Positions 18,405 through 63,615 of a stretch of DNA of 64,000 nucleotides are shown one piece after another. The position numbers and the translations under genes are program-made. Source of the DNA: a virus; IMG/VR virus record IMGVR_UViG_3300005527_000042, positions 91,714 through 155,713 of that record; one strand, 5' to 3'. Numbering within the stretch: the stretch's first letter is position 1; each line of letters starts with the position of its first letter. Below the pieces are notes generated by a model. The model saw only the letters and a list, made by a program, of their open reading frames with translations, ran no database searches and was not told the DNA's origin.

Positions 18405-20240
18405 ATGCAACTCATCAAACAAAGATTTTCTTATTTCAGAATAGATTTAGTTAGGGATAATTGTATGTTGTCTGAAGATAGACCAATACCAATTGTTGTA
18501 TCTGATGGTAAAGAACTGGATGATGATTTTTTATTTACTGAACAGGTTAAGACACTTGAGCCCGTTGTAAATAGGGATACCAAATTTGAAACCATAAAAT
18601 TGGAACCAAGACCATCAAAGGGTGCGAGGACAAAATATTTTTATGGTGAAAAAGAAAAAGAATACGTTTCTTTCATAAAATTGACAAAAGAACCTTGTTA
18701 CACAACAAGTGAAAAACATTTAAAAAGACATTATGGGAATCCTTTCTCATCAATACAAATTGTAACATTTGAAAGAACAATAGAACTTAGAGAAGGTAAA
18801 CTTTACATAAGGTGTTACAAGAATACCAGATATCGTGATTTTAATTGGAAATATTTCCGTAAATCTTCCAAGGTAATGACGTTAACAATTGATTTACAGA
18901 AGGGAGATTTTACGATTGGGGATATGAATTTTGGAAAGATAAAATCCAAAAGATTTAGAAAAAATTCATTTACTACGTTAGAAATCTTGTTGGGTTCAAA
19001 CAGTCTTTTCAATTTAAAAAAAGAGTTTAGTAACAATCTTAAAATCGCTAAGGAATTTGATGACACATTTAATGAACACGAATTTGTAAATGTTATTAAA
19101 AATCACATTCCAAACTTACCTACTAACGTTGGAAACTTATTTGATAAACATTTTTTTATAACTAGTTTTATTGAATTCTTTGCGGAAAAGAAAAAAATAA
19201 AAACACCAAACGACTTTGTACCACTTATTAAAATACATTACCCAACTGAAAAATACCTTAAAAAGAATCAGAGAAAATTAATGCAATCTATTTTGGATAG
19301 TTACGGAATAAATTCAAAATTTACCTTGAAACTTTTCCATGAAAATCCAAAATTAAATTTACAAGAGTTTTCATGTATGTGTGATTTACTTGGAAAGGAT
19401 TATCCAAAATACCTCGGTTCTTTGAAAAGTGAATGTTTTAATCTTTTTATGGTAGATAATGGTAATGCACATTCTATGGTACCGCTTGAATTGAGAGGTG
19501 CTAAAAATCACCACCGACACCTGTTTATTGATAATGTTGATAGGGAAAATATCATTAAAATTTTAAATTCCCTGATTCCCAAACCGGCAGGAGACCATTC
19601 AGTATCGTCGGTTACTCGAGGTATATACACTTTGATAAAAGACCACTTCGATATGATTGAAAAGATTCGTGAATTTGACCCTAACATAAAAATGAGGGCA
19701 ACAAATTACACGGACTTTCATACAGAGCACATTGAACTATCCAAGACATGTTCATTAATCAAAAAGGGTTGGTCAATCGAATATCAATATGACAACAGAA
19801 TGGTGAGATTAGTGGAGGAACAAATAAAGACTCGATTTGAGAACGACAATCATATTTTTTCTCCTGTGATATTAAAGAGAGAAGAAGAATATTCGGAAGA
19901 GGGTACATTTATGCACCACTGTGTTGCCAGTTACGCAAACAAAGAATCATCAATGATAATTTCATTGAGGACCAACGGTGGTTCAGATAGAGTAACATGT
20001 GAGTTTAACAAAAAAACAGGTGACTGTATTCAGGAGAGACATTTTTGTAATAAGTTACCACCTGAGTATTTTGGTGAATCATTAGAAATATTAAAACAAA
20101 GAGTTAGAAAATTTGCGTCACAAAGATTATTGAACCACATTGATATTAAAAAGGTGAAAGTTAAAATAAATGGGAAGGAAGTCAACCAAAGAGAACCTGA
20201 TTTATTTGAACAACTGATGAATGGTGACATAGAGTTTTAA
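18405..20240 (+). CDS. PcfJ-like protein, paralogue 1
   Basis: A 611-residue protein. The C-terminal part (about 490-590) matches the PcfJ-like domain pattern: REEEYSEEGTFMHHCVASYA, then MIISLRTNGG, VTCEFNKKTGDCIQ and FCNKLPPEYF. The central LMQSILDSYGINSKF and FSCMCDLLGKDYPKYL segments recur in the next gene. PcfJ was named on an enterococcal conjugative plasmid; its biochemical role is unknown. The CV-SY cysteine and HH pair suggest a binding or catalytic site. Own promoter. Confidence 0.78.
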   Translation: MQLIKQRFSYFRIDLVRDNCMLSEDRPIPIVVSDGKELDDDFLFTEQVKTLEPVVNRDTKFETIKLEPRPSKGARTKYFYGEKEKEYVSFIKLTKEPCYTTSEKHLKRHYGNPFSSIQIVTFERTIELREGKLYIRCYKNTRYRDFNWKYFRKSSKVMTLTIDLQKGDFTIGDMNFGKIKSKRFRKNSFTTLEILLGSNSLFNLKKEFSNNLKIAKEFDDTFNEHEFVNVIKNHIPNLPTNVGNLFDKHFFITSFIEFFAEKKKIKTPNDFVPLIKIHYPTEKYLKKNQRKLMQSILDSYGINSKFTLKLFHENPKLNLQEFSCMCDLLGKDYPKYLGSLKSECFNLFMVDNGNAHSMVPLELRGAKNHHRHLFIDNVDRENIIKILNSLIPKPAGDHSVSSVTRGIYTLIKDHFDMIEKIREFDPNIKMRATNYTDFHTEHIELSKTCSLIKKGWSIEYQYDNRMVRLVEEQIKTRFENDNHIFSPVILKREEEYSEEGTFMHHCVASYANKESSMIISLRTNGGSDRVTCEFNKKTGDCIQERHFCNKLPPEYFGESLEILKQRVRKFASQRLLNHIDIKKVKVKINGKEVNQREPDLFEQLMNGDIEF

Positions 20241-53591: not shown

Positions 53592-54383
53592 TCATACACG
53601 TCTCGTGTCGTCAATAAAAATTCTTACGTTGTGTTTCTCCCTGAACTTTTTTTCTAACTTATCAATAATATTATCTTGTAAGTTATAGGGGAAATCGGGA
53701 CTACCTTTTTCGATACCATCTATGGTTTTAAATTTTGAATCAATGAACGGAATTAAATCTTTTTCATTTTTTATATCTTTTTTCCCGCGTACCACAACTC
53801 TAATAACTGGGTTGTCTACGAGTTCATACTCATGGTCATCTATCTTTCCTTTTTTATATACGGTGTAATACACCGTCGCTCTCTTTATTAAAATTTTTAT
53901 CCACTCATCCATTTGGTCAAAAAACTTAGGTAATACATCTTGAGGTAATACAAGGGAATATTGGCCAGACAAAATGTACTGTATTGTTGGATTATCATAC
54001 CTGAGGTGATTGGTATAATTTCTGTCAAACGATTCTTCTAATAAATCAATAATTAAAGGTCCGTTAATAAGGTGAAGTGACCTTATACTTAACTTGAACG
54101 GAAATTCACCGAACCCAATCTCTTGAATTTTTCTGCCAACCAAAATGTAGATGTCATTAATCATCTCAGGATAAACCCTGTTAACATCAACAAATAGTTT
54201 CAATAGACATTCACTTATAAAAGGGACACCATCTATTGTTCCTTGGGTTGGGTCTTCAGCTACAACATATTTTATTGTAATGGTCCCATCGGTCAGTCCT
54301 TTAAGTGAGTCACCTATTTGTGGTAAAGCGTCGTGAAACTTTTGGACATCATCACCTTCTAAAGTTTCTGTTAGTTTAATCAT
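53592..54383 (-). CDS. Hypothetical protein
   Basis: A 263-residue protein from the Met at 54,383 (MIKLTETLEGDDVQKFHDAL). A Met 9 residues upstream is possible. Middle GEFPFKLSIRSLHLINGPLI and C-terminus KLEKKFREKHNVRIFID. It may be a virion or DNA-packaging related protein; not recognised. Confidence 0.6.
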   Translation of the reverse strand: MIKLTETLEGDDVQKFHDALPQIGDSLKGLTDGTITIKYVVAEDPTQGTIDGVPFISECLLKLFVDVNRVYPEMINDIYILVGRKIQEIGFGEFPFKLSIRSLHLINGPLIIDLLEESFDRNYTNHLRYDNPTIQYILSGQYSLVLPQDVLPKFFDQMDEWIKILIKRATVYYTVYKKGKIDDHEYELVDNPVIRVVVRGKKDIKNEKDLIPFIDSKFKTIDGIEKGSPDFPYNLQDNIIDKLEKKFREKHNVRIFIDDTRRV

Positions 54384-54416: not shown

Positions 54417-54590
54417 GCCAAACTAAATCGACCTCCTCAGGTCCCTGAACTAACAAGTGTTAGTTAGTTTGTGCCAAACAAAATCGGTACCGTCGGACGA
54501 TTCTGAGGATTCTGATTCCGCCAAACTAAATCGGTGGATTTATTGTTACAACATCAATTGTCTAAACAACCTTTCCGCCAAACTAAATTG
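54417..54590 (-). repeat. Four-copy array of the TTTGGC motif
   Basis: On the plus strand GCCAAACTAAAT or GCCAAACAAAAT occurs at 54,417, 54,473, 54,520 and 54,577. Copies 1 and 4 also share a downstream CTCAGGTCCC. No gene is visible in this 54,411-54,620 gap; it is GC-richer than its surroundings. Could be cassette remnants. Confidence 0.72.
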
Positions 54591-54623
54591 ACCATCTCAG
54601 GTCCCGTCGTCAGGATTCTCATT

Positions 54624-54658
54624 AAAAAAAAAATCCCGTGACGTTAATCACAGGATTT
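54624..54658 (-). terminator. Terminator of the histone-like gene
   Basis: AAATCCCGTGA (54,631-54,641) and TCACAGGATTT (54,648-54,658), with one mismatch and a 6-nt loop, followed on the minus strand by a long T run. Confidence 0.85.
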
Positions 54659-54681
54659 GGTTAAGAGACTTGAGTCGTCTA

Positions 54682-54951
54682 TTACATATTACTCAAGATA
54701 CTCTTACGGAACTCGAAAGCTTTCTTCTTGGAGGAGAAGTTCTGAGAGTAACGGGTTCCGTTAACGCTAGCACGTACACGGTAAGAGAAACCATCATAGT
54801 AGATGTGGTGTGAAACAGGTACGTAAGTACTTACGGTTGTTTTCATAGCCGGAGCTGCTACTGCTTTCTTCCCACCCTTTTTGGGGGCTGGAGCTGGTTT
54901 CGCCGCTGGTTTGCTGGCGGGTTTTTTAGTTGTGGACTTCTTTGTTGCCAT
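54682..54951 (-). CDS. Histone H1-like tail fused to an AP2/arm-binding-like domain
   Basis: An 89-residue protein. Residues 1-35 are Lys/Ala/Pro-rich (MATKKSTTKKPASKPAAKPA), like bacterial H1 tails. Residues about 47-85 (HHIYYDGFSYRVRASVNGTR then YSQNFSSKKKAFEFRKSIL) form three strands and a helix as in AP2 or integrase arm-binding domains. Probably a DNA-compacting or DNA-binding protein. Has its own promoter and terminator. The fusion is unusual. Confidence 0.72.
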   Translation of the reverse strand: MATKKSTTKKPASKPAAKPAPAPKKGGKKAVAAPAMKTTVSTYVPVSHHIYYDGFSYRVRASVNGTRYSQNFSSKKKAFEFRKSILSNM

Positions 54952-54972
54952 AATATATTGATTTTGATATAT

Positions 54973-55004
54973 AAAATATACACAAGAAAATCCTAAAAAC
55001 CAAA
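54973..55004 (-). promoter_or_regulatory. Minus-strand promoter
   Basis: TTTGG (plus-strand CCAAA at 55,000-55,004), 19-bp spacer, TATATTTT (54,973-54,980), upstream of 54,951. Confidence 0.72.
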
Positions 55005-55034
55005 TCCTATAAAAAAATCTTTCAAAGAACTAAT

Positions 55035-55046
55035 GCCAAACTAAAT
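55035..55046 (-). repeat. TTTGGC motif copy
   Basis: ATTTAGTTTGGC on the minus strand; its TAG is the stop codon of the gene ending at 55,041. Confidence 0.75.
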
Positions 55047-55361
55047 CCACAGTATGATTCCCTCCTCAGGGTTATCAGGGTACCGTGACTCTTCTAAACA
55101 TACACCACATGTGGATGGTAATAATTGCTGCTTACCTTTTATTCCATCTACCTGAAATTGCGATAGAGGTGCTGGTATACTGAATCCACATATGTGACAC
55201 TCTAACCTATATACGTTTAACTCACCCTTCCAATATAAATCAGTCAAGTTGAATTTCTTTCCCATCACTACGTTGTCATTAACGTCGGTAATGGTGTCTT
55301 CTATTATTTCACCTGTGGTAGGGTCCGTGAAGTATACCTTGTCCCTGATGAAGAGTTTCAT
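55041..55361 (-). CDS. Putative zinc-ribbon protein
   Basis: A 106-residue protein. CHICG and CGVC form a four-cysteine zinc ribbon in the second half (LECHICGFSIPAPLSQFQ, TCGVCLEESRYP). It ends EEGIILWI-stop inside the TTTGGC motif. The first half (KVYFTDPTTGEIIEDTI) is beta-rich. Function unknown. Confidence 0.65.
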   Translation of the reverse strand: MKLFIRDKVYFTDPTTGEIIEDTITDVNDNVVMGKKFNLTDLYWKGELNVYRLECHICGFSIPAPLSQFQVDGIKGKQQLLPSTCGVCLEESRYPDNPEEGIILWI

Positions 55362-55516
55362 TTACTCTTCCCCCTTTCTTCCAAACGTTGCAAATATTGT
55401 GAAAACATCTTGGCCGCCATTGCTAACCTTTGAGGTTTAAAACAATATTTCTTATTAAGTCTAGCCATTGCTATCCTCATGAACTGTTCCTGAATCCGTG
55501 GTTCTACTACTATCAT
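55358..55516 (-). CDS. Small basic helical protein
   Basis: A 52-residue ORF starting MIVVEPRIQEQFMRIAMARL. ATGA overlap with the zinc-ribbon gene downstream. Not recognised. Confidence 0.5.
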   Translation of the reverse strand: MIVVEPRIQEQFMRIAMARLNKKYCFKPQRLAMAAKMFSQYLQRLEERGKSK

Positions 55517-55530
55517 GACTTTAAATATTG

Positions 55531-55992
55531 CTACAGGTGAGTATTGAATACATCAAAATCCCTAATTCCCATATTTTGTCTCTCCACTCTTGCGTTGTGC
55601 TGTAAAAACGCTTGAATACCTTCACCGTGTGGTACGGCTTGAAATATTAGTTGCTGTTTAAATTGCTCTGAAGTAATAACTCGAACAACAGACAGTCCAA
55701 GTAATCTCATCCAAAATGGTTCGTCGACCATTACAGATTTAATCCTGAAATAGTTCACAGATTCTCGAGTCACACTGAAGACCCCTTTTCGTTCAATTAC
55801 ACAGTCATCATAGAATTCATACCTCCAACAATCTACTTCGAAATATTTGTAGATATAGATGACTACCGCCAATGCACATGCATATGGGTGTACGAAGTAA
55901 GTTGCTGGTACCATGGCCAGCCAACCAATATTCAACCACTGAGATGGGGTGAATATGTGAATCGGTTCTTGAGGTTTCTGTGTATTGAACAT
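55531..55992 (-). CDS. bPH2-domain membrane protein
   Basis: A 153-residue protein with an N-terminal membrane hairpin (WLNIGWLAMVPATYF then ACALAVVIYIYKYF) and a bacterial PH-like domain (WRYEFYDDCVIERKGVFSVT; YFRIKSVMVDEPFWMRLLG). This DUF304-type domain is common in Gram-positive and Bacteroidota membrane proteins. Unknown function. Confidence 0.72.
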   Translation of the reverse strand: MFNTQKPQEPIHIFTPSQWLNIGWLAMVPATYFVHPYACALAVVIYIYKYFEVDCWRYEFYDDCVIERKGVFSVTRESVNYFRIKSVMVDEPFWMRLLGLSVVRVITSEQFKQQLIFQAVPHGEGIQAFLQHNARVERQNMGIRDFDVFNTHL

Positions 55993-55996
55993 AATA

Positions 55997-56287
55997 CTAA
56001 GTTTTTGTTACAGTTTTATTTGCGGTTGTTCCTGCTGGTGAACATCCACATGGTGATGCTTTTCTACACATATTCATAAATGTCAGTGTATCCACTAAGT
56101 ATACCTTCATGGTATCACCATATGAACCTTTATCCCATTGGGGTTTAATTACTTCTCGGGTTATGTTGCAATCGATAAAGTAAACTTTGTGTCCACTTAC
56201 TAATGCCTTGTCCCCGTGTTGGATATATGTTCGATTGGTTCCACAACCAACTAATCCAAGTGCTGATATAAATAATATTTTTTTCAT
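55997..56287 (-). CDS. Small lipoprotein
   Basis: A 96-residue protein with signal MKKILFISALGLVGCGTNRT and lipobox LVGC; further Cys in FIDCNI, MCRK and SPCGCS. It ends Thr/Lys-rich. Unknown role in the envelope. Confidence 0.7.
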   Translation of the reverse strand: MKKILFISALGLVGCGTNRTYIQHGDKALVSGHKVYFIDCNITREVIKPQWDKGSYGDTMKVYLVDTLTFMNMCRKASPCGCSPAGTTANKTVTKT

Positions 56288-56311
56288 AACTCCAAATCTA
56301 AATAAAATTTA

Positions 56312-56914
56312 TTACTTCTCAATATGGATATCACGAAAAAATTCAAAATCAATTACTTCGTCTTCCTCCACCGCGAAGTCAACACACATTGCAATAATCT
56401 TTCCTCTTTTCTTTGCAACATATAATGTGTAAGAACCATCACCAAAACCAGATGAAGAAACTACTCCCTCGTCATACACACCGTATCGACTATCACCCAA
56501 GGTACGAGAACACATACTGATGTACCATTTTTCACCTTGTTCTTCCTCACGGGCCTCGGTCATTTCTTTCCAAGGTGTTACACCAAAGAATGAAATGTCA
56601 CCATCTCCCAAACCGATTCGTTCTGTAATAGAGTCGTCACGGTAAGATTCTTTGGAGAAGATTCCACACTGACCTGAGTCGACACCGATGGTTGCAGGAT
56701 AATCTTTCCAAACCAGTTTGTCGTCTTTATGGTCCTCGTGTATGACAAGTATCATTGAACTTCGGATACCCCAATCACCACAGTCGTGACGCTTAACATA
56801 GGTGTCATACATACCGGGTTTAACACCACTAACAATTCCCTGACACCAGGTTGGGATTGTGTAACAAGGGTCGGATACTACGACCTCAGTTCCTAATTTG
56901 ATTTTGTTTGTCAT
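56312..56914 (-). CDS. DUF4241-like phage protein
   Basis: A 200-residue protein from the Met at 56,914. EVVVSDPCYTIPTWCQG, GVDSGQCGIFSKESY and GFGDGSYTLYVAKKRGKIIA with MCVDF resemble DUF4241 proteins. Own promoter (TTTGG, 19 bp, TAATTTTG). Unknown function. Confidence 0.7.
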   Translation of the reverse strand: MTNKIKLGTEVVVSDPCYTIPTWCQGIVSGVKPGMYDTYVKRHDCGDWGIRSSMILVIHEDHKDDKLVWKDYPATIGVDSGQCGIFSKESYRDDSITERIGLGDGDISFFGVTPWKEMTEAREEEQGEKWYISMCSRTLGDSRYGVYDEGVVSSSGFGDGSYTLYVAKKRGKIIAMCVDFAVEEDEVIDFEFFRDIHIEK

Positions 56915-56943
56915 ACACCTATTGATTTTTAATGTTCTATATT

Positions 56944-56975
56944 CAAAATTAATACATTTACTAGAATATTCCAAA
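56944..56975 (-). promoter_or_regulatory. Minus-strand promoter
   Basis: Plus-strand CCAAA at 56,971-56,975, 19-bp spacer, CAAAATTA (TAATTTTG on the minus strand) at 56,944-56,951. Confidence 0.75.
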
Positions 56976-56993
56976 TTTTTCTAGAATATTTTT

Positions 56994-57005
56994 GCCAATC
57001 TAAAT
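56994..57005 (-). repeat. TTTGGC motif copy (degenerate)
   Basis: Minus-strand ATTTAGATTGGC, one mismatch to the consensus, immediately after the TGA of the gene ending at 57,006. Confidence 0.6.
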
Positions 57006-57305
57006 TCAGTACATCTCCTCCTTCAGTTGCTTTGCTTTCTCAAAGTGTTTCTTGATTTGGTTTGCAAAACTCACCAAACGAGCTTTGGTCTTTGCGTATG
57101 CGTAGAACTGACAATACTCACTGTCAAAATCGATTCCACTACAATTGATGTTTCTCTTGACACAGTCCTCGAAGTCATAGGCAGAGTCGTAGTCGTGACC
57201 AATTGCTTCTTTTTTAGGGAAACCAGTAAGTGTCCACTGTGCTCCATCCCAATCACCTTTGTAAATTGAGAGTCCAATACCTGTTGAAATTGTTTCTGTT
57301 TTCAT
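57006..57305 (-). CDS. Hypothetical protein
   Basis: A 99-residue protein from the Met at 57,305 (an upstream Met would overlap the previous gene). TGIGLSIYKGDWDGAQWTLT and YQ-type aromatic stretches. Not recognised. Confidence 0.55.
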   Translation of the reverse strand: MKTETISTGIGLSIYKGDWDGAQWTLTGFPKKEAIGHDYDSAYDFEDCVKRNINCSGIDFDSEYCQFYAYAKTKARLVSFANQIKKHFEKAKQLKEEMY

Positions 57306-57309
57306 ACCT

Positions 57310-57789
57310 CTACTTTTTAAATGTTGATTTGAATACTCGGATGTTTTCCTCAATCTCGAGGTCCATAGCCTGAGCTAACTTCATCTTGGCTTTGGTCATG
57401 AACTCCTTGTCGCCAGACAAAATCTCCAAATCCTCCTCAGGGTGAAACTCAATCTTGTCGACAATAACACGGACATCTTTTGACTTCTTATCCTTACGGT
57501 AGAAAGGAGTCCTTGCGTAGATGTACTCACGAACTTGAGTCAACTTGATATCACTGAGGTCCTCACGAATTCTCATTTGGATTATAATCTCCTCGAGTGA
57601 TGCTAGTTTTTCGAATGTTAATTTACTCTCAGTGATTAAGTTCTTATATAAACCAGTGAGCTCTTTAAGCTCCTTAGAATATTTCTTACCATCACCGTGG
57701 TTGATGAATTGGTCATATGAACTCAGTTCACTCTTTGACCCTACGATGTCAATGAAGACACCCTCGATTGTTTTATTTACTCGTCCCAT
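57310..57789 (-). CDS. Hypothetical protein
   Basis: A 159-residue helical protein starting MGRVNKTIEGVFIDIVGSKS, with a coiled-coil-like middle (LYKNLITESKLTFEKLASLE). Not recognised. Confidence 0.6.
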   Translation of the reverse strand: MGRVNKTIEGVFIDIVGSKSELSSYDQFINHGDGKKYSKELKELTGLYKNLITESKLTFEKLASLEEIIIQMRIREDLSDIKLTQVREYIYARTPFYRKDKKSKDVRVIVDKIEFHPEEDLEILSGDKEFMTKAKMKLAQAMDLEIEENIRVFKSTFKK

Positions 57790-57794
57790 AATCT

Positions 57795-58055
57795 TTAAAA
57801 GAAGTTTAATACAGATTTTAACATGCCAAACAAAATTCGGGGTTCGGCTGTCCCGTCGGAAAATTTTACTTCAGAGTTTTCCATTTCTCTTTTCATTTGA
57901 ATTGCTTCATCAACTTTAATCCGTTGCTCGATGGTTCTTGCGTGGTATTTGGATGAAACAATGACATTCTCTTGAGTTCTCAATGCGTCTACCCATTCTT
58001 GGTAGGTTAATTCTTCTTGAGGTTCTGCTGTCGATAATATTTTCAAATCTTCCAT
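57795..58055 (-). CDS. Hypothetical protein reading through a TTTGGC motif
   Basis: An 86-residue helical, acidic protein starting MEDLKILSTAEPQEELTYQE. Near the C-terminus AEPRILFGMLK is encoded by ATTTTGTTTGGC, the motif version with TTG instead of the TAG used as a stop in other genes, so the protein is extended by 12-13 residues. Confidence 0.55.
   Translation of the reverse strand: MEDLKILSTAEPQEELTYQEWVDALRTQENVIVSSKYHARTIEQRIKVDEAIQMKREMENSEVKFSDGTAEPRILFGMLKSVLNFF
57825..57836 (-). repeat. TTTGGC motif copy inside a coding region
   Basis: Minus-strand ATTTTGTTTGGC; encodes I-L-F-G within the gene at 57,795-58,055. Confidence 0.6.
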
Positions 58056-58061
58056 ATGAAT

Positions 58062-58676
58062 TTATTTTACTTTTTCCTTTAGTTCTTCTTCGTATATTCT
58101 ACGGATTTCTTTTGCGTCTTCCGTATCCACATAAGGGAATTGTGCAACGAAGTCATCAACACTAGTTTCGTTATCGATTGCATATTCCATCTCATTTTGG
58201 AAAAGGGATTCCCAAAAGTATTCTTCGTCAAAACGATAGTTACCTTCGAGATAACCATAATCATCCTCAACCACTCCGTTTTGATTAATGGTTGTTTTGC
58301 CACAGAAATCACTTCCACCCTCCGAGTAGAACAACTCCACATCCACACCATACATCTTGTGTAATACAACACCAAAGTTTATTGGTGGTGACCACGCCGT
58401 ATCAGGTGACATATAGATAACATCCTTCTCAAAAGTGAAGTTGCAGTCGGCGTATGACACATCCCATTTGGTACCATACCAACTGGTGTTTGCATTATAC
58501 CATCCACCTTGTTCGTATTCTTCTTTACTAATTTCAGGTTCACGACCGATTAAGGACTCAAACACGATACACTTTTCAGGTTCGGACTTTGGAACATCAT
58601 TAAGGATACGAGTGAGCAAACCAATCTGCTCTTCAGTACCTGTTATTGTTATTGAGTTTTGACACCAGTTCGGCAT
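58062..58676 (-). CDS. MPNWC-type (DUF1281/YubB-like) protein
   Basis: A 204-residue protein starting MPNWCQNSITITGTEEQIGL, the signature of YubB-like ferredoxin-fold proteins carried by plasmids and phages. WGP-like aromatic region WSPPINFGVVLHKMYGVDVE and acidic second half. Function unknown. Confidence 0.82.
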   Translation of the reverse strand: MPNWCQNSITITGTEEQIGLLTRILNDVPKSEPEKCIVFESLIGREPEISKEEYEQGGWYNANTSWYGTKWDVSYADCNFTFEKDVIYMSPDTAWSPPINFGVVLHKMYGVDVELFYSEGGSDFCGKTTINQNGVVEDDYGYLEGNYRFDEEYFWESLFQNEMEYAIDNETSVDDFVAQFPYVDTEDAKEIRRIYEEELKEKVK

Positions 58677-58708
58677 AATCTATCTATTTTAAGCTGTTCA
58701 TTAATACA

Positions 58709-58753
58709 AAGGTATAAAGAGGATACCATTTTACCAAACGATATCCTCTTTTT
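58709..58753 (-). promoter_or_regulatory. Promoter overlapping a 10-bp inverted repeat
   Basis: -33 TTTGG (plus-strand CCAAA 58,736-58,740) lies in the loop of a perfect stem AAAGAGGATA (58,718-58,727) / TATCCTCTTT (58,744-58,753); the -7 TACCTTTG (58,709-58,716) follows 19 bp after the -33. It combines the end of the upstream gene and the promoter for 58,676. A T run also follows the stem on the plus strand. Confidence 0.68.
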
Positions 58754-58759
58754 ATTTTT

Positions 58760-59305
58760 TTACCAGGATGATTGGTAGTAGAAATCTCCTTCCTTTTCCT
58801 CTAATAAGGGAGTGATTTGTTTGATGGTATCTTCTAAACCTTTTAGATACCACTCATCATATTCAGTTCCCCCGAAAAAGAAACCTGCTTGGGTTGGTAG
58901 TAGTTCTTCCGCAAGTTCGGTGTCGGTGTAGACATCGATGTCCTCATACAATTCCTTACCACCTTGCCAACCAACTTTCACCTGAACCTTCTTCGTCGGA
59001 GAATTTTTCAGGGTTGCTCTAACTTTCCCACAGGTATCCACCAACTCTTTGAGTTTTTCGCGGTCTACATAATACTCACCACAATCGTCCTCACCGTCCT
59101 GTACATTGTTTACAAACCATGCGTGGATGTGGTTGTCCTTTCTCCAATACGCCACCTGTTCCTCGATGGATGAAATTCTGTCGGGTTGAATTTCCTTAAC
59201 TACTTTCCCACCCTTCTTAACTGTCACCTTGTGAAGTTGTTCGGGTTCCATATGTGACCAATTTTTCACATAGGTTTTCTTCTTGAGATACATGTCTAAT
59301 CCCAT
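58760..59305 (-). CDS. MGLDMYL-family phage protein
   Basis: A 181-residue protein starting MGLDMYLKKKTYVKNWSHME. AYWRKDNHIHAWFVNNVQDG is the conserved block, followed by DDCGEYYVDREKLKELVDTC. A widespread phage family with unknown function. Starts 5 bp after the upstream gene, so in operon with it. Confidence 0.8.
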   Translation of the reverse strand: MGLDMYLKKKTYVKNWSHMEPEQLHKVTVKKGGKVVKEIQPDRISSIEEQVAYWRKDNHIHAWFVNNVQDGEDDCGEYYVDREKLKELVDTCGKVRATLKNSPTKKVQVKVGWQGGKELYEDIDVYTDTELAEELLPTQAGFFFGGTEYDEWYLKGLEDTIKQITPLLEEKEGDFYYQSSW

Positions 59306-59309
59306 TGTA

Positions 59310-59612
59310 TTATTGATTTAAGATGTTAAACAATTTTGTACCAAGACCAAATAACTTTTCGGCCTTATCTTCTCTTTTTCCTTCACTACACACGTAGATT
59401 GACTTATCAGGTAGAACACCCAAATCCAACATTCCAAATGTGTGTTCCCATTTACCATTGATGAATTGTTCACCTGTAAACCTTTCTTGTGCGTTGTACG
59501 CTTCGTAGGTCATTTTCAATTTGACATTATTCTCATTTTGAATAATTCTCATCTCATATGACTTATCTCTCAAGTGAGATGATACCGAGTGGATTACTTT
59601 TTCTTTTTTCAT
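59310..59612 (-). CDS. Hypothetical protein
   Basis: A 100-residue protein from the Met at 59,612 (MKKEKVIHSVSSHLRDKSYE). The promoter's -7 element ends only 4 nt upstream of this ATG, so an earlier in-frame Met is impossible. Not recognised. Confidence 0.6.
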   Translation of the reverse strand: MKKEKVIHSVSSHLRDKSYEMRIIQNENNVKLKMTYEAYNAQERFTGEQFINGKWEHTFGMLDLGVLPDKSIYVCSEGKREDKAEKLFGLGTKLFNILNQ

Positions 59613-59616
59613 AATA

Positions 59617-59678
59617 CAAAGATATAACAATTTTTCTTTTATACCAAATTTATTTTCAACTTTGTTGCCAAACTAAAT
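59617..59678 (-). repeat. Promoter cassette repeat, copy A
   Basis: 63-bp unit (from 59,616) containing TATCTTTG (-7), 19-bp spacer, TTTGG (-33) and, at its upstream end, the ATTTAGTTTGGC motif. Nearly identical to copies at 60,004 and 60,761. Confidence 0.85.
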
Positions 59679-59984
59679 GTCCTCGACGGTAAAGTCATCC
59701 GACTCAAGGATGTCTATGATGTGTGCGAGTTCATATATGTCCAATTCAACTAACGAGAGTTCTATACTATCACCAAAACTTTCCGACATCACAGTACCAT
59801 CAGGTAATATTCCATACGCCGCGTATTGAACTCTACCATCATCTTCGTACATACCTTCGGTAACCCAAACTCCAAACACATTTCTAAATGTGATTTGTTG
59901 GTTCTCACCAATAATGGTCGAACATTTGTTTTTAATTTTTTTGATTATTTCCTCTTGTAGGTCTTGAATTTTTTTCTTGTACAT
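59673..59984 (-). CDS. Hypothetical protein
   Basis: A 103-residue protein starting MYKKKIQDLQEEIIKKIKNK. Its last codons are FTVEDI-stop, with stop TAG inside the TTTGGC motif. Helical start, beta-rich middle. Not recognised. Confidence 0.6.
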   Translation of the reverse strand: MYKKKIQDLQEEIIKKIKNKCSTIIGENQQITFRNVFGVWVTEGMYEDDGRVQYAAYGILPDGTVMSESFGDSIELSLVELDIYELAHIIDILESDDFTVEDI

Positions 59985-60003
59985 AATAAAATGTTTTAGT
60001 AAT

Positions 60004-60066
60004 ACAAAGATATAACAATTTTTCTTTTATACCAAATTTATTTTCAACTTTGTTGCCAACCTAAAT
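60004..60066 (-). repeat. Promoter cassette repeat, copy B
   Basis: 63 bp, one difference from copy A (GCCAACCTAAAT instead of GCCAAACTAAAT). -7 at 60,005-60,012, -33 at 60,032-60,036; drives 59,984. Confidence 0.87.
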
Positions 60067-60110
60067 CAATGTCCATCCCATAATATATGTGTACGAGGTT
60101 TTTAATAAAA

Positions 60111-60132
60111 AACCCCACATTTCTGTGGGGTT
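60111..60132 (-). terminator. Terminator
   Basis: AACCCCACA (60,111-60,119) / TGTGGGGTT (60,124-60,132), 4-nt loop, T run on the minus strand. The stem sequence recurs near 63,624. Confidence 0.9.
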
Positions 60133-60147
60133 CTCTCCTTAAACCAA

Positions 60148-60738
60148 TCAATCATAAGTAATCCTCGCGTATTTTACTGTGACCCAGTTGTCCTTTACAA
60201 CAATCTTACCCATGTCCTCACCATCCTCGCCTTTCCAATAAACCTCACCATTTAATTTCACACCCCACTTCTCAAAGAAATGATTGATGATATATTTCAA
60301 CCACTCAACGTAGTTGTAAAACTTCTCACCACCATCCCATATTAGATGAGTTCCATTTTCATCCGTAGTCCACTGACACCATAAACCAGGTTGACATTTA
60401 CCCTCTCGTGTTCTCAAATCATTTTGTGTCCACCTTTCGTTGTAGTTAGTTGTTAGAAAATCTAGTTGACCTGGAGGTGTATTGTAATCGACAATACTAT
60501 CATCCTTGTCTTGACCTGCGAACCCATTACCACCAACAAAGTATTCACCATCGTTTCCGTAGGTTTCTTCTTTTGGTAGAAAAGGGTTTCCGTGTTCACC
60601 CTTAAATAACTCATAGAGTTTCTCAACATTTCGTTTCATTCTACGAGTGTTGTTGAACTTGGTGATGTAATTCTTTTCATCACTAGTAAGTGGACGACTG
60701 AATTCAAATCCACCTTCGAAATCGGTTGTGTATCCCAT
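60148..60738 (-). CDS. MGYTT-family phage protein
   Basis: A 196-residue protein starting MGYTTDFEGGFEFSRPLTSD. KCQPGLWCQWTTDENGTHLI then WDGGEKFYNYVEWLKYIINH matches a conserved phage family of unknown function. Its own promoter cassette (copy C) and terminator flank it. Confidence 0.82.
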   Translation of the reverse strand: MGYTTDFEGGFEFSRPLTSDEKNYITKFNNTRRMKRNVEKLYELFKGEHGNPFLPKEETYGNDGEYFVGGNGFAGQDKDDSIVDYNTPPGQLDFLTTNYNERWTQNDLRTREGKCQPGLWCQWTTDENGTHLIWDGGEKFYNYVEWLKYIINHFFEKWGVKLNGEVYWKGEDGEDMGKIVVKDNWVTVKYARITYD

Positions 60739-60760
60739 ACTTTTTTAATTTAATTGTATT

Positions 60761-60823
60761 ACAAAGATATAACAATTTTTCTTTTATACCAAATTTTTTT
60801 TCAACTTTGTCGCCAAACTAAAT
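60761..60823 (-). repeat. Promoter cassette repeat, copy C
   Basis: 63 bp, two differences from copy A. -7 TATCTTTG (60,762-60,769), -33 at 60,789-60,793; its upstream end ATTTAGTTTGGC holds the stop of the SprT gene. Confidence 0.87.
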
Positions 60824-61294
60824 CCCCCCTGTGAATATGGGGTTTGGTCTGAACTCCAATTTGTACTTTGGGTTGTAACTACCACCCGAACAATTGCTAC
60901 ATGAATAAGACCTACTTCTTAAACGATGGGCTTTGGATACCTTACCACAACCAACACATGTTGCAATATATTTTGCTTCGGGTGTTTCAACTACTTTACT
61001 ACTATAACAACGATGTCCATCACAACCTATTTCAATCGCTTTCGACCTCCATACATGGTTATGTTTTTGACCAGGACAAAGTGCGTGTGCAATCTCATGT
61101 AGAATAGTATTCTTTACATGACTTTCATCATTAAGTAATGTCAATACTTTGGATAGTGTAATTTGTTTAGGTCTGTATTTACAACACCCAAACCTACTTT
61201 TTGCATTGTCATACGCAAATGTCCACCCCTTAACATCTAACTTGTGTTTGTGAATTAACTTCTCTGCTAACCGTTGTGCTTTAATTAAGTCCAT
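60818..61294 (-). CDS. SprT-like zinc metallopeptidase
   Basis: A 158-residue protein. NTILHEIAHALCPGQKHNHV (HExxH and third His) followed by W is the SprT active site; CVGCGKVSKAHRLRSRSYSC then SNCSGG is a zinc ribbon. SprT domains are linked to DNA-protein crosslink repair. Ends FTGGI-stop in the TTTGGC motif. Confidence 0.9.
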   Translation of the reverse strand: MDLIKAQRLAEKLIHKHKLDVKGWTFAYDNAKSRFGCCKYRPKQITLSKVLTLLNDESHVKNTILHEIAHALCPGQKHNHVWRSKAIEIGCDGHRCYSSKVVETPEAKYIATCVGCGKVSKAHRLRSRSYSCSNCSGGSYNPKYKLEFRPNPIFTGGI

Positions 61295-61309
61295 GTTGTT
61301 TTATTTTAG

Positions 61310-61321
61310 GCCAAACTAAAT
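61310..61321 (-). repeat. TTTGGC motif copy
   Basis: Minus-strand ATTTAGTTTGGC, holding the stop of the gene at 61,316 and lying 16 nt before the ATG at 61,294. No promoter is visible in this gap. Confidence 0.72.
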
Positions 61322-61705
61322 TTCACCTTCACCTGTCGTGATGTACACTCCGTAATCGATGGTGTGCAATTGTGGTACTCCATCATTGTCCATGATGTGA
61401 CCATCGAATAACCAGTTGGGTTGAACTCGTGGATTGTATCGAACCCTACGACTTTCATCCTTGTATGGTTGACCTGTGTAAATCTTGATGTCCTTACAAA
61501 GTATCCACGCACATACTGTTTTATTACCACCATCGAAAATCTTCTGTGCTGTTTTCCTGTGGTTCTTAAATGTGCAACCTGTCATGACCAACTGATTATC
61601 TGTTGGACTGTAATACAATACACTACCATCAGGGTGTTGTACTTTCCACTTCATGTAGTTCTTACCTCTACCGAGATTGAACCTTACTTTAATACTTTTA
61701 CTCAT
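61316..61705 (-). CDS. Hypothetical protein
   Basis: A 129-residue protein from the Met at 61,705. VRFNLGRGKNYMKWKVQHPD, VMTGCTFKNHRKTAQKIFDG, CAWILCKDIKIY. Beta-rich with several basic residues; ends TGEGEI-stop. The start is fixed by the -7 element at 61,724-61,731. Confidence 0.6.
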   Translation of the reverse strand: MSKSIKVRFNLGRGKNYMKWKVQHPDGSVLYYSPTDNQLVMTGCTFKNHRKTAQKIFDGGNKTVCAWILCKDIKIYTGQPYKDESRRVRYNPRVQPNWLFDGHIMDNDGVPQLHTIDYGVYITTGEGEI

Positions 61706-61723
61706 CTTGATTGGTTTATAATA

Positions 61724-61755
61724 CAAATATAATACTAATTCTTTTATATTCCAAA
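61724..61755 (-). promoter_or_regulatory. Minus-strand promoter
   Basis: Plus-strand CCAAA at 61,751-61,755, 19-bp spacer, CAAATATA (TATATTTG) at 61,724-61,731. Confidence 0.88.
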
Positions 61756-61764
61756 TGTTTTTTT

Positions 61765-61794
61765 GCCAAACAAAAATCCCCCTGTGACGGGGGA
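61765..61794 (-). terminator. Terminator joined to a TTTGGC motif
   Basis: TCCCCC (61,777-61,782) / GGGGGA (61,789-61,794), then on the minus strand a short T run that continues straight into a GTTTGGC motif (61,765). Ends the gene at 61,800; the plus side also carries a T run. Confidence 0.75.
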
Positions 61795-61799
61795 CCTTT

Positions 61800-62402
61800 T
61801 TATTCTTTCAAATCAAAAATCAATTCGGTGTAATTCATCATCCCATTGGTTACGAGTGGACTATCTTTTTCTACCGAGATAACATCTCTTGCCCACGAAC
61901 CAACAATCTCATTTTCATCATCACCTCTAAAATCTCCCCCACCCATTCCGTTACCTTCACTAGTTAATAGTGGTAAAGGGTGAATTTTTACACCATCCCA
62001 TCCTTGAATTTCGGGAACTTTGTTTTTATCCACGAACATTTTTTTGGTGTGGTTTACAATGTAGGGGTATTCATCCGTTGATGACACTTTGGGTTTGATT
62101 TGGTTTTCATCATTACAAAGTGAATACAAATTTGCATCGTACTCCTTCCCTTCCGAAATGACTTTTACACCTGGTTCTTCTCCTGCGTAATCACCCGCCC
62201 ACACTACACGACTTTTGTAATGTTCACCTCTACGGGTTAATTGTTTTTCAAAAGTTGAAACGAAGTTGTTCCCTTGATAGGAATGCTCCATCAGTTTGAG
62301 TCCGTTGTCGTACTCGTGTGAATACATCCACGCTTTAACTGTTTCGTGTTCACCCTCTTTTGGGGTGTTACCTAAAATGATTGGTTTATAATATTGTCCC
62401 AT
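61800..62402 (-). CDS. MGQYYK-family phage protein
   Basis: A 200-residue protein starting MGQYYKPIILGNTPKEGEHE, with WMYSHEYDNGLKLMEHSYQG and RVVWAGDYAGEEPG: a family frequent in Bacteroidota phages, function unknown. Own promoter. Confidence 0.8.
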   Translation of the reverse strand: MGQYYKPIILGNTPKEGEHETVKAWMYSHEYDNGLKLMEHSYQGNNFVSTFEKQLTRRGEHYKSRVVWAGDYAGEEPGVKVISEGKEYDANLYSLCNDENQIKPKVSSTDEYPYIVNHTKKMFVDKNKVPEIQGWDGVKIHPLPLLTSEGNGMGGGDFRGDDENEIVGSWARDVISVEKDSPLVTNGMMNYTELIFDLKE

Positions 62403-62422
62403 TGTTATGTTGTTTTATGATA

Positions 62423-62454
62423 CAAATATAATACTGTTATTATTATATTCCAAA
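62423..62454 (-). promoter_or_regulatory. Minus-strand promoter
   Basis: Plus-strand CCAAA at 62,450-62,454, 19-bp spacer, CAAATATA (TATATTTG) at 62,423-62,430. Confidence 0.87.
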
Positions 62455-62483
62455 TAATTTTTTATCTTTTTTATTGTTTTCTT

Positions 62484-62578
62484 GCCAACCAAGTTTTTGG
62501 ATTAACCAGGGTCACCAGCAAAATGACCAGTAAAACTGGCTGTTGCAACCAGTCTGAAGCCAGGTGATTTTGGTTGGC
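62484..62578 (-). ncRNA. Structured RNA or DNA element, candidate
   Basis: GCCAACCAA (62,484-62,492) and TTGGTTGGC (62,570-62,578) form a 9-bp terminal stem. Inside, TCACC/GGTGA and the CCAGT-AAA-ACTGG hairpin (62,527-62,539) can pair, and an alternative CTGGC/GCCAG helix is possible. The region is GC-richer than its surroundings and has no ORF. It sits between the terminator at 62,673-62,691 and the promoter of 62,402. Confidence 0.45.
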
Positions 62579-62615
62579 ACAACTTAAAGTGTTGATTTTA
62601 TTAGGATTACAGAAT

Positions 62616-62628
62616 GCCAAACAAAATT
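62616..62628 (-). repeat. TTTGGC motif copy
   Basis: Minus-strand AATTTTGTTTGGC, the TTG variant, in the same gene-free gap (62,403-62,672). Confidence 0.65.
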
Positions 62629-62672
62629 CCGATGACCAGCATCATGCGCGCAACATCTTCAAGCAATAAAAA

Positions 62673-62691
62673 ACCCCTCATTGTGAGGGGT
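62673..62691 (-). terminator. Terminator containing the stop codon
   Basis: ACCCCTCA (62,673-62,680) / TGAGGGGT (62,684-62,691), 3-nt loop, T run on the minus strand; the TGA stop of the Gp88-like gene is in the stem. Confidence 0.9.
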
Positions 62692-63448
62692 CTACTATAA
62701 ACTTACTATCTTTTTGAGGTCGTTTTCGTGTGACTTTATATTTTAATCCCACAATAATGTCGTTCTCATCTCGATATCTCATATCATATAAGTCACCATC
62801 GATAACTTTTCTACCCCAAAACTTTTTGGGTATTTCTTTTTTGAAAACAACGGCAACTCGTATACCATTGTTCAACATACTAATACAATCTGAAAAGTTT
62901 GTACCACTAAATGAAAATGTTAAGTCGTAGTTCTTATACTTCTTAACTAACTCCATTCGTTTACCCACTTTGCTGTAGTCGTAAAACATAACATTAGGAA
63001 ACAATTGCAAAATGTTTTTTCTTTTACCATCTATCTCCATATGAAAAGATTCGGGTGAAATGTCTGAAGTGTTATTTAAACGAACACTAAAGTGATAACC
63101 TTGTTTTTCTGCCTTCTTTTTTGCCGCCTCAATTTCTGCAACCATCCATTGCATGAAATACTGGCGATGTTCGAAAAACAATTTTGTTTTTTTAATTCTA
63201 CTCTCAGTAATCATGTCATCTCTCATGTTCATTCGATTCATACCAGATTCGTTTAAACATAGTGCAGTACACTCCGCGTTTCTCATTGGGCAAACTTCGT
63301 AACCACTTAAGTCCGCGGGTGCGAGGTAAAGACTGTAGGTTAATTCATCATACTTGTACGCCTTAGCGTGTTTTGATGTCAGGTTAACTGAACCTAAATA
63401 ATTGATTCCAGTTTCCTTTCTGGCTTGGGTTTTATTTCTGTACTCCAT
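62678..63448 (-). CDS. Gp88-like phage protein
   Basis: A 256-residue protein from the Met at 63,448. YEVCPMRNAECTALCLNESG has a three-cysteine cluster, followed by SVRLNNTSDISPESFHM and DLTFSFSGTNFSDCISM. Matches the mycobacteriophage gp88 family of unknown function. The cysteine cluster may bind an iron-sulfur or zinc centre. Own promoter. Confidence 0.78.
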   Translation of the reverse strand: MEYRNKTQARKETGINYLGSVNLTSKHAKAYKYDELTYSLYLAPADLSGYEVCPMRNAECTALCLNESGMNRMNMRDDMITESRIKKTKLFFEHRQYFMQWMVAEIEAAKKKAEKQGYHFSVRLNNTSDISPESFHMEIDGKRKNILQLFPNVMFYDYSKVGKRMELVKKYKNYDLTFSFSGTNFSDCISMLNNGIRVAVVFKKEIPKKFWGRKVIDGDLYDMRYRDENDIIVGLKYKVTRKRPQKDSKFIVDPSQ

Positions 63449-63468
63449 ATAATATTGGTTTAACAATA

Positions 63469-63500
63469 CAAATATAAAACGAATTCTTTTATATTCCAAA
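63469..63500 (-). promoter_or_regulatory. Minus-strand promoter
   Basis: Plus-strand CCAAA at 63,496-63,500, 19-bp spacer, CAAATATA at 63,469-63,476. Confidence 0.87.
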
Positions 63501-63532
63501 TTTATTTTTATTTTTTTTCTTCAGGAGGGACC

Positions 63533-63615
63533 TGTTCTTCCCAGGGCGATATTGTTTGGCGGGCGCCAAACTAATTTAATAGACGAACTGTGCAGCTCCT
63601 CCGCACACATTCGAG
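63533..63615 (-). other. GC-rich gap with a palindromic TTTGGC motif
   Basis: GTTTGGCG (63,554-63,561), GG, CGCCAAAC (63,564-63,571): the motif forms an 8-bp inverted repeat here. The flanks hold CAGG-AGGGA-CCTG and a GGAGG/CCTCC pair. No ORF. Confidence 0.5.

Follow-up and report, generated by a model that had tools for sequence, protein, structure and literature searches.

Results

The stretch of DNA analyzed here (the window) comprises 64,000 nucleotides, bases 91,714–155,713 of the 155,713-base virus record IMGVR_UViG_3300005527_000042, such that its right edge is also the end of the contig. Toward this edge lies a minus-strand block of genes in which a 12-bp motif, referred to as M, recurs many times. 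The motif forms the core of a larger element, in which a variable, G+C-rich flank of ~24 bp, referred to as W, is followed by GATTTWGTTTGGC. A GP88 protein 100% identical to that encoded in the block is also present on contigs of up to 288 kb, and the 288-kb relative was used to characterize the virus. Of its 363 open reading frames (ORFs), 200 encode proteins of 150–900 residues, and 123 of these (in sets of 40, 47 and 36) were scanned against Pfam with at most 25 families listed per scan, which returned a T4-type capsid protein (Gp23), portal, gp32 and terminase proteins and a secretion-system sorting tail. The set of 36 (L076–L079) additionally gave a RuBisCO large-chain domain (E 1.1e-31), IMP dehydrogenase and glycosyltransferases. 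Promoters of the block fit TAnnTTTG, given in PMC7366714 as the −7 consensus of Bacteroides sigma-ABfr; for this reason, the promoter sequences suggest that the host is probably a member of the Bacteroidota.

M is confined to one block and mostly to one strand

Allowing two mismatches on both strands of the window, 32 matches to M were found, as opposed to 8.98 expected (standard deviation 3.40); the largest count among 100 shuffles of the window was 20, and none reached 32. With no more than one mismatch, the whole 155.7-kb contig has 13 sites, every one of them on the minus strand and at window positions 54,417–63,576. A relaxed pattern gave 61 matches in the 288-kb relative (45 minus, 16 plus), 58 of which fall in a single 25-kb block at 210.7–235.7 kb and the other three near 113–116 kb. 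A stricter pattern gave 19 matches, all on a single strand, in each of nine same-species contigs (G001–G005, G022–G025). The enrichment of the motif, with which the original prediction began, is borne out by these counts, and a scan of the contig and the 288-kb relative for matches at background frequency on both strands did not refute it. Fourteen of the 15 coordinates first proposed are in the list of matches with two or fewer mismatches; the remaining site, at 62,484, reads AACTTGGTTGGC and has four mismatches to M as judged by eye, while its counterpart in the relative L020 has AAATTGTTTGGC. The proposed restriction to the minus strand and to the block is true of the sites with at most one mismatch and must be relaxed at two, since plus-strand copies then appear at 62,567 and 63,549 as convergent partners of minus-strand copies, and further copies appear left of 53 kb. 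Those left of 53 kb number 12 of the 32, six per strand, as chance would give. A third plus-strand copy (56,901) lacks the GGC end, and additional minus-strand copies within coding sequence were found at 53,964, 54,135 and 57,412. In four M copies (55,035; 59,667; 60,812; 61,310), the TAG that ends the preceding ORF falls within the motif.

M is also carried by six relatives with 74–100% identical GP88 (L015, L020, L024, L021, L022 and L023), and this M-bearing lineage is referred to as lineage A. Over 127 sites, the G+C content is 53–62% in the 24 bp before M versus 25–35% behind M and 32–40% farther upstream. Base preferences within the flank are weak (among them A at −8 and T at both −6 and −12), and A occupies position −1 in 111 of 120 sites. 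Identity in three pairs of relatives is 0.77, 0.80 and 0.65 over the 22 bases that precede M, 0.96, 0.96 and 0.94 over M itself, and 0.81, 0.85 and 0.79 over bases −60 to −36. A strongly hypervariable flank was rejected on this basis, as W varies more than M and only somewhat more than other flanking sequence. Odd 5-bp dyads are enriched in the flank in lineage A (306 versus 200.5, z 7.7), though not clearly so in lineages B and C (described below; z 1.1 and 0.9), and may represent methylation or restriction words. Tandem M copies are 44–48 bp apart in 15 of 21 cases and 56–57 bp apart in three, and back-to-back copies are 70–72 bp apart in five of ten.

M is in helical register with promoters and with convergent copies in lineage A

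How is M positioned relative to promoters? Distances were measured from the end of M to whichever TAnnTTTG box came first in the range of 18–80 bp, and de-duplication removed sites more than 0.8 (or, more strictly, 0.7) similar. The resulting distances are 31–33, 41–44 or 51–53 bp in 60 of 65 distinct lineage-A cases, the exceptions being 25, 58, 60, 73 and 74 bp. After de-duplication at 0.8, 42 of 46 cases remain in these clusters (phasing statistic R 0.87, best period 10.2); at 0.7, the corresponding values are 18 of 22 and R 0.84, and 0 of 2000 uniform draws match R at either threshold. The median R for 36 control five-base words was 0.32 and none had the 0.87 of M; the two best, GGCAA (0.80) and TGGCA (0.74), overlap M. 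Of 167 sense M copies, 82 are followed by a TAnnTTTG box within 120 bp, versus 0 of 36 antisense copies, and M is found no more than 90 bp upstream of 45 of 80 strong promoters. Within the window, seven copies precede TAnnTTT[GT] boxes by 33, 42, 42, 42, 42, 54 and 60 bp. The statements that the motif is separate from promoter boxes and is not explained by promoter function are thus wrong for lineage A, where many copies stand at fixed helical distances from the boxes.

A second periodicity is observed where M faces an inverted copy, M′. The spacers of 33 distinct convergent pairs are 4 bp (8 pairs), 14–15 bp (2), 23–27 bp (5) or 36–38 bp (15) long, with exceptions at 9, 10 and 45 bp, and after de-duplication at 0.8 (n=18) R is 0.84, which 0 of 2000 draws equaled. 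The IHF consensus WATCAANNNNTTR is matched in 10 of the 15 distinct 36–38-bp spacers; matches in the 288-kb genome number 59 on both strands. The spacer behind GP88 in L015 is inverted in L020 and L024, with the match to the IHF consensus at the mirror position. The 36–38-bp spacers are related by descent and therefore do not represent independent cases. Active inversion of spacers was considered and set aside, as the orientation differs between relatives and is not polymorphic among the same-species contigs compared. Separately, GTATTAC, GTATGACA and GTAGTAC are found repeatedly just behind M and within M/M′ spacers of lineages A and B (L015, L021, L026).

One hypothesis is that M acts in RNA, as a processing, antitermination or 3′-end signal in leftward transcripts, for which the strong strand bias and the copies that overlap stop codons or come after terminators could be cited. 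However, the spacing of M, both to the box and between convergent copies, follows the DNA helix, and promoter-linked copies lie upstream of the predicted transcription start. Folding of the flank is also close to that of shuffles: no conserved hairpin was found at 128 lineage-A sites (mean z −0.46, and −0.55 for the other strand, against flank shuffles), which rules out an RNA hairpin as a general feature of W, the strongest single cases including terminator-linked sites. Helical spacing of both kinds therefore argues for a protein on double-stranded DNA, and we consider an RNA element highly improbable.

Related lineages carry different words in the matching block

Ten loci with 63–67% identical GP88 (L025–L034) were compared. 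Lineage B (L025, L026, L028–L032) carries TTTACTGGG or ATTACTGGG instead of M, L034 (lineage C) carries TTACCGGGA, L033 carries ATCCGGTCAAC in a different layout, and L027 carries M, with 4-bp convergent pairs. A GP88 tree was used only for the support of lineage B (100/99); L024 is odd in this tree, its extract probably being out of frame, and L027 is oddly placed. The B word is concentrated in the last 17 kb of a 176-kb contig (26 of 27 copies) and the C word in the last 20 kb of a 269-kb contig (34 of 36). The words are largely exclusive in the long contigs: TTTACTGGG-type words number 0 in A and 0 in C, TTACC-type words 2 in A and 0 in B, and M-type words 1 in B and 5 in C, the latter five scattered outside the C block. 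The blocks of lineages A, B and C share orthologous genes, and a G+C-rich flank precedes the word in B and C as well. Given the helix-turn distances of M from promoters and partner copies, and the change of word from one related virus to another, M is most likely the landing site of a virus-specific control protein.

Other repeats were encountered in these comparisons. L033 (339–6743) contains ten copies of ATCCGGTCAA(C), all on one strand, close together and mostly behind terminator-like sequence, and perhaps constitutes a related but different system. Additional repeated words are found across the B and C contigs (L080–L088 and L089–L102), such as ACACCAACA with 36 and 75 copies when both strands are counted. 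Scanning viral contigs for the tandem pattern returned 22 stretches; of the eight from new contigs, L103 and L114 carry the element and the remaining six do not resemble it. A scan of bacterial chromosomes gave at least 120 matches. Among the 80 listed, 60 are from Candidatus Parabeggiatoa, and the two of these that were read (L157, L139) are a REP-like repeat, CCAAACTTTAGTTTGG, that has the same 11 bases by coincidence. Eight listed matches are from Bacteroidota chromosomes, with one to three copies per stretch. The bacterial matches among those listed were judged to be unrelated.

Candidate readers of M

Two proteins were considered as readers of M. A ParB-like gene (L015:8438–9193) lies beyond the position at which the window's own contig stops. 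Its product matches PHROG 12305 (E 6e-22), passes no Pfam cut-off (GmrSD_N, at E 1.3e-4, falls under it) and has no sequence match in the PDB; its predicted model (pLDDT 79.9) matches nucleotide-bound ParB with E 3.7e-4. One hypothesis is that a ParB-like CTP clamp loads at M copies and either spreads and silences, in the manner of KorB, or partitions DNA. The gene is present in the block of 6 of 16 records searched, all of lineage A, and the 4-bp convergent pairs form palindromes that bear some resemblance to parS. However, the gene is missing from all nine lineage B, C and D records searched (several being fragments), even though these have such elements; most M copies are single and asymmetric; and the TM-scores to ParB are only about 0.3. 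Moreover, the gene's distribution follows phylogeny, so its correlation with M amounts to one event. For this reason, the modeled ParB-like protein is a candidate reader only in the sense of a lead, and the clamp hypothesis is distinctly doubtful.

The second protein is the product of gene X, which has M copies on both sides in the window. It has a Lys/Ala/Pro-rich tail and a small beta-beta-beta-alpha domain and is probably a DNA-binding protein; fold matches to AP2 and integrase arm domains were not significant (none at E ≤ 0.001). Gene X is kept in lineages A and B and in L033, with a shorter, tail-less form in B. Lineage-B homologs are 61–63% identical to the window copy, about as close as those of L022 and L023 (64–65%), which share M. 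The sequence of gene X does not follow the word, and for this reason it is unlikely to be the specific reader.

Gene cassettes between M-plus-promoter repeats

A 388-bp unit containing the gene at window 59,673–59,984 is present in L015 and absent from L020. This is a clean difference: the surrounding DNA is 99–100% identical, and the terminal M-plus-promoter direct repeats in L015 agree at 72 of 85 bases. The difference is less clean in a second case (L015 3,673–3,996), where the repeats agree at 63 of 85 bases and the flanks are 90–93% identical. PeSLs are promoter-terminator cassettes, repeated between accessory genes of T4-like phages, and have been linked to modular shuffling; studies by Arbiol in 2010 and Comeau in 2014 are said to have proposed shuffling of accessory genes for the PeSLs of T4-type phages. 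By analogy, M plus its promoter could be mainly a recombination module, the end of a mobile regulatory cassette kept for the shuffling of accessory genes, which would account for both cassette cases and for the M/M′ spacer inverted between relatives. However, recombination requires neither the phasing, nor the fixed orientation, nor the concerted change of word, and no recombinase was identified. Comparison of the same-species contigs L013, L014, L016, L017 and L035–L038 with L015 likewise revealed no inversion or cassette polymorphism, the contigs showing no difference or one indel near 18,877. We consider a mainly recombinational role quite unlikely. The earlier suggestion of a recombination seed is retained as a consequence, seen in the 388-bp cassette, rather than as the main role. 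The GTTTGGC ends and the gene cassettes also brought integron-like attC sites into consideration; these were judged unlikely, as most copies are single and paired arms face inward, and integrase was not among the Pfam families listed for the 123 proteins scanned, no dedicated integrase search having been made.

The features of the window are collected in Table 1. In addition to these, the block encodes an SprT-like protein (60818–61294), a relative of mycobacteriophage L5 gp82 (61316–61726) and the GP88 protein (62678–63499).

Table 1 Features of the M block, in window coordinates. A W-M unit is M with its flank W; bp values give the distance from M to the box.
Feature	Position	Strand	Details
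W-M unit, last of four-unit tandem array behind gene X	54417–54452	−	M 54417–54428, exact
W-M unit, tandem array	54473–54508	−	M 54473–54484, 1 mismatch
W-M unit, tandem array	54520–54555	−	M 54520–54531, exact
W-M unit, tandem array, behind gene X terminator	54577–54612	−	M 54577–54588, exact
Gene X, 89 amino acids	54682–54951	−	M copies on both sides
W-M unit	55035–55070	−	M 55035–55046, exact, TAG inside; 54 bp to gene X −7-like box 54973–54980
W-M unit	56994–57029	−	M 56994–57005, 1 mismatch; 42 bp to −7-like box 56944–56951
W-M unit in 3′ end of 57795–58055 ORF	57825–57860	−	M 57825–57836, 1 mismatch
W-M unit, cassette end	59667–59702	−	M 59667–59678, exact, TAG inside; 42 bp to −7 box 59617–59624
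Gene cassette: promoter, ORF 59673–59984, M	59667–60066	−	Studied at same-species locus L015:13435–13823
W-M unit	60055–60090	−	M 60055–60066, 1 mismatch; 42 bp to −7 box 60005–60012
W-M unit	60812–60847	−	M 60812–60823, exact, TAG inside; 42 bp to −7 box 60762–60769
W-M unit	61310–61345	−	M 61310–61321, exact, TAG inside; no −7 box found within 90 bp
M directly after terminator hairpin	61765–61800	−	M 61765–61776, 2 mismatches; 33 bp to −7 box 61724–61731
Degenerate M plus flank	62484–62519	−	62484–62495, 4 mismatches; 53 bp to −7 box 62423–62430, by eye
M′, convergent partner of 62616	62567–62578	+	2 mismatches
37-bp M/M′ spacer	62579–62615	−	Match to IHF consensus ~62585–62597; inverted in L020, L024
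W-M unit, convergent with 62567	62616–62651	−	M 62616–62627, 1 mismatch
M′, convergent partner of 63565, 4-bp spacer	63549–63560	+	2 mismatches
W-M unit	63565–63600	−	M 63565–63576, 1 mismatch; 60 bp to −7-like box 63497–63504, outside clusters

Discussion

We hypothesize, with moderate confidence, that M is the operator core for a phage-encoded, lineage-specific regulator of host-polymerase promoters within one 25-kb block of a large T4-like phage, the phasing behind this reading coming from lineage A only. An operator was among the functions first suggested for the motif, and this idea gains support from the helical phasing to promoters and between convergent copies and from the different word in each lineage. 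The regulator would bind M upstream of the −7 box, always in the same orientation and at any of three positions that differ by a single helical turn, and would touch the polymerase from upstream, most likely activating it. The rationale for this statement is that fixed orientation at helical distances upstream of promoters fits an activator that contacts polymerase, just as helically spaced convergent pairs fit a cooperating DNA-binding protein. Convergent pairs would then bind the regulator as cooperating partners, kept in register over zero to three extra turns, and a DNA-bending protein may sit in the 36–38-bp spacers. As M plus its promoter is repeated, gene cassettes could also come and go through recombination between copies. 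The sequence itself shows that M keeps to the block and to a set orientation, that it is phased in lineage A, that the word is specific to the lineage and follows a G+C-rich flank, and that one cassette differs cleanly between relatives. From this arrangement we infer that there is such a protein, that it cooperates and activates instead of repressing, that the DNA is bent, and that timing is involved.

Several results weigh against the operator hypothesis. Of the 167 sense M copies, 85 lack a −7 box within 120 bp, and M is absent from the 90 bp upstream of 35 of the 80 strong promoters. The samples are small at the stricter de-duplication, with 22 M-to-box cases and eight convergent pairs, for which 26 of 2000 draws gave an R as high, and the sites of related phages are not fully independent of each other. 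A helical spacing of tandem copies, suggested by eye, was rejected, as 49 of 2000 draws were as high at 0.8 and 475 of 2000 at 0.7, leaving no significant period at the strictest de-duplication. In lineage B, phasing to the box like that of M is not significant (R 0.55, with 59 of 1000 random sets as high) and copies before promoters are mostly in the opposite orientation, while lineage C offers only three cases and one case for phasing. Nor does the spacing of convergent copies reach significance in either lineage (B, 74 of 1000; C, 1000 of 1000). Finally, the reader of M is a postulated protein.

A more elaborate possibility is a block-wide code in which each cassette carries M as an address word together with a variable G+C-rich flank, and a phage protein, in lineage A perhaps a CTP-switching ParB-like clamp, reads the word in promoter register, the lineages having swapped the word across the whole block and kept the layout. 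Taken as a whole, this proposal is speculative, and we give it a low probability. If it were true, exchange of the word would keep each regulator from reading the genes of a co-infecting relative. To our knowledge, little is known of gene control in such large phages. A partial survey of the openly licensed literature, by title or the start of the abstract, returned no description of this element. If the operator hypothesis is correct, M would represent a block-wide operator system in large T4-like phages, and would document at the level of sequence how accessory genes come and go at repeated promoter elements. Defined sites, a register of ~10 bp with the −7 box, and three lineages with three words could provide a route to the phage regulator and to how its specificity changed.

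Comparison with known systems

Does M correspond to a known class of site? Two reports on cluster A mycobacteriophages (L5, TipsytheTRex) describe more than 20 asymmetric stoperator and operator sites of ~13 bp. These are located in promoters or in short gaps between genes and predominantly face one way, and their motifs vary between related phages (PMC9283540, PMC6550527). By this analogy, a phage repressor would block both elongation and initiation at asymmetric intergenic sites oriented with transcription. M shares with stoperators the many asymmetric sites of similar length (12–13 bp), the single prevailing orientation (all 13 near-exact sites of the contig; in the relative, 45 minus and 16 plus by the relaxed pattern), the short intergenic spaces and a motif that differs between lineages, as stoperator motifs vary between phages according to PMC6550527; some copies also lie over stop codons or have no following promoter. 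However, an elongation block needs no helical phasing upstream of promoters, convergent pairs of M are frequent, and M is held to one block (58 of 61 matches in 25 kb of 288 kb), as opposed to stoperators, which PMC9283540 places throughout the genome. The G+C-rich flank and the register with promoters and partners are further differences, and the words differ outright between lineages. There is also no known repressor or lysogeny with M, and no repressor or integrase is among the Pfam families listed, at most 25 per scan, for 123 of the 363 ORFs. A stoperator-like repressor is thus unlikely, albeit worth weighing.

KorB of plasmid RK2 has 16-bp operators located 4–10 bp or 45 to >1,000 bp from promoters, as given in PMC11790492. 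The resemblance to M lies in numerous sites both near to and far from promoters and in the ParB-like protein encoded in the lineage-A block; unlike KorB operators, many M sites are single, asymmetric and at phased distances. Some convergent pairs with a 4-bp spacer are palindromic, and most copies are not paired in this way. Class I activators such as CRP bind palindromic sites as dimers, in helical register upstream of the promoter. The distances of M from its promoters likewise differ by one helical turn, whereas M is asymmetric, fixed in orientation and found in a phage. Like PeSLs, M units are repeated, bear promoters and lie between accessory genes of a T4-like phage, and gene exchange at the units is seen between L015 and L020, where presence or absence is clean in one case and less so in the other. 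Unlike in PeSLs, what is conserved here is a lineage-specific word that stands before the promoter at helical spacing. No conserved stem-loop was found in the flank of M, and terminators precede some of the units. The closest kinds of element are the mycobacteriophage stoperators and the T4-type promoter cassettes, and M is assigned to neither.

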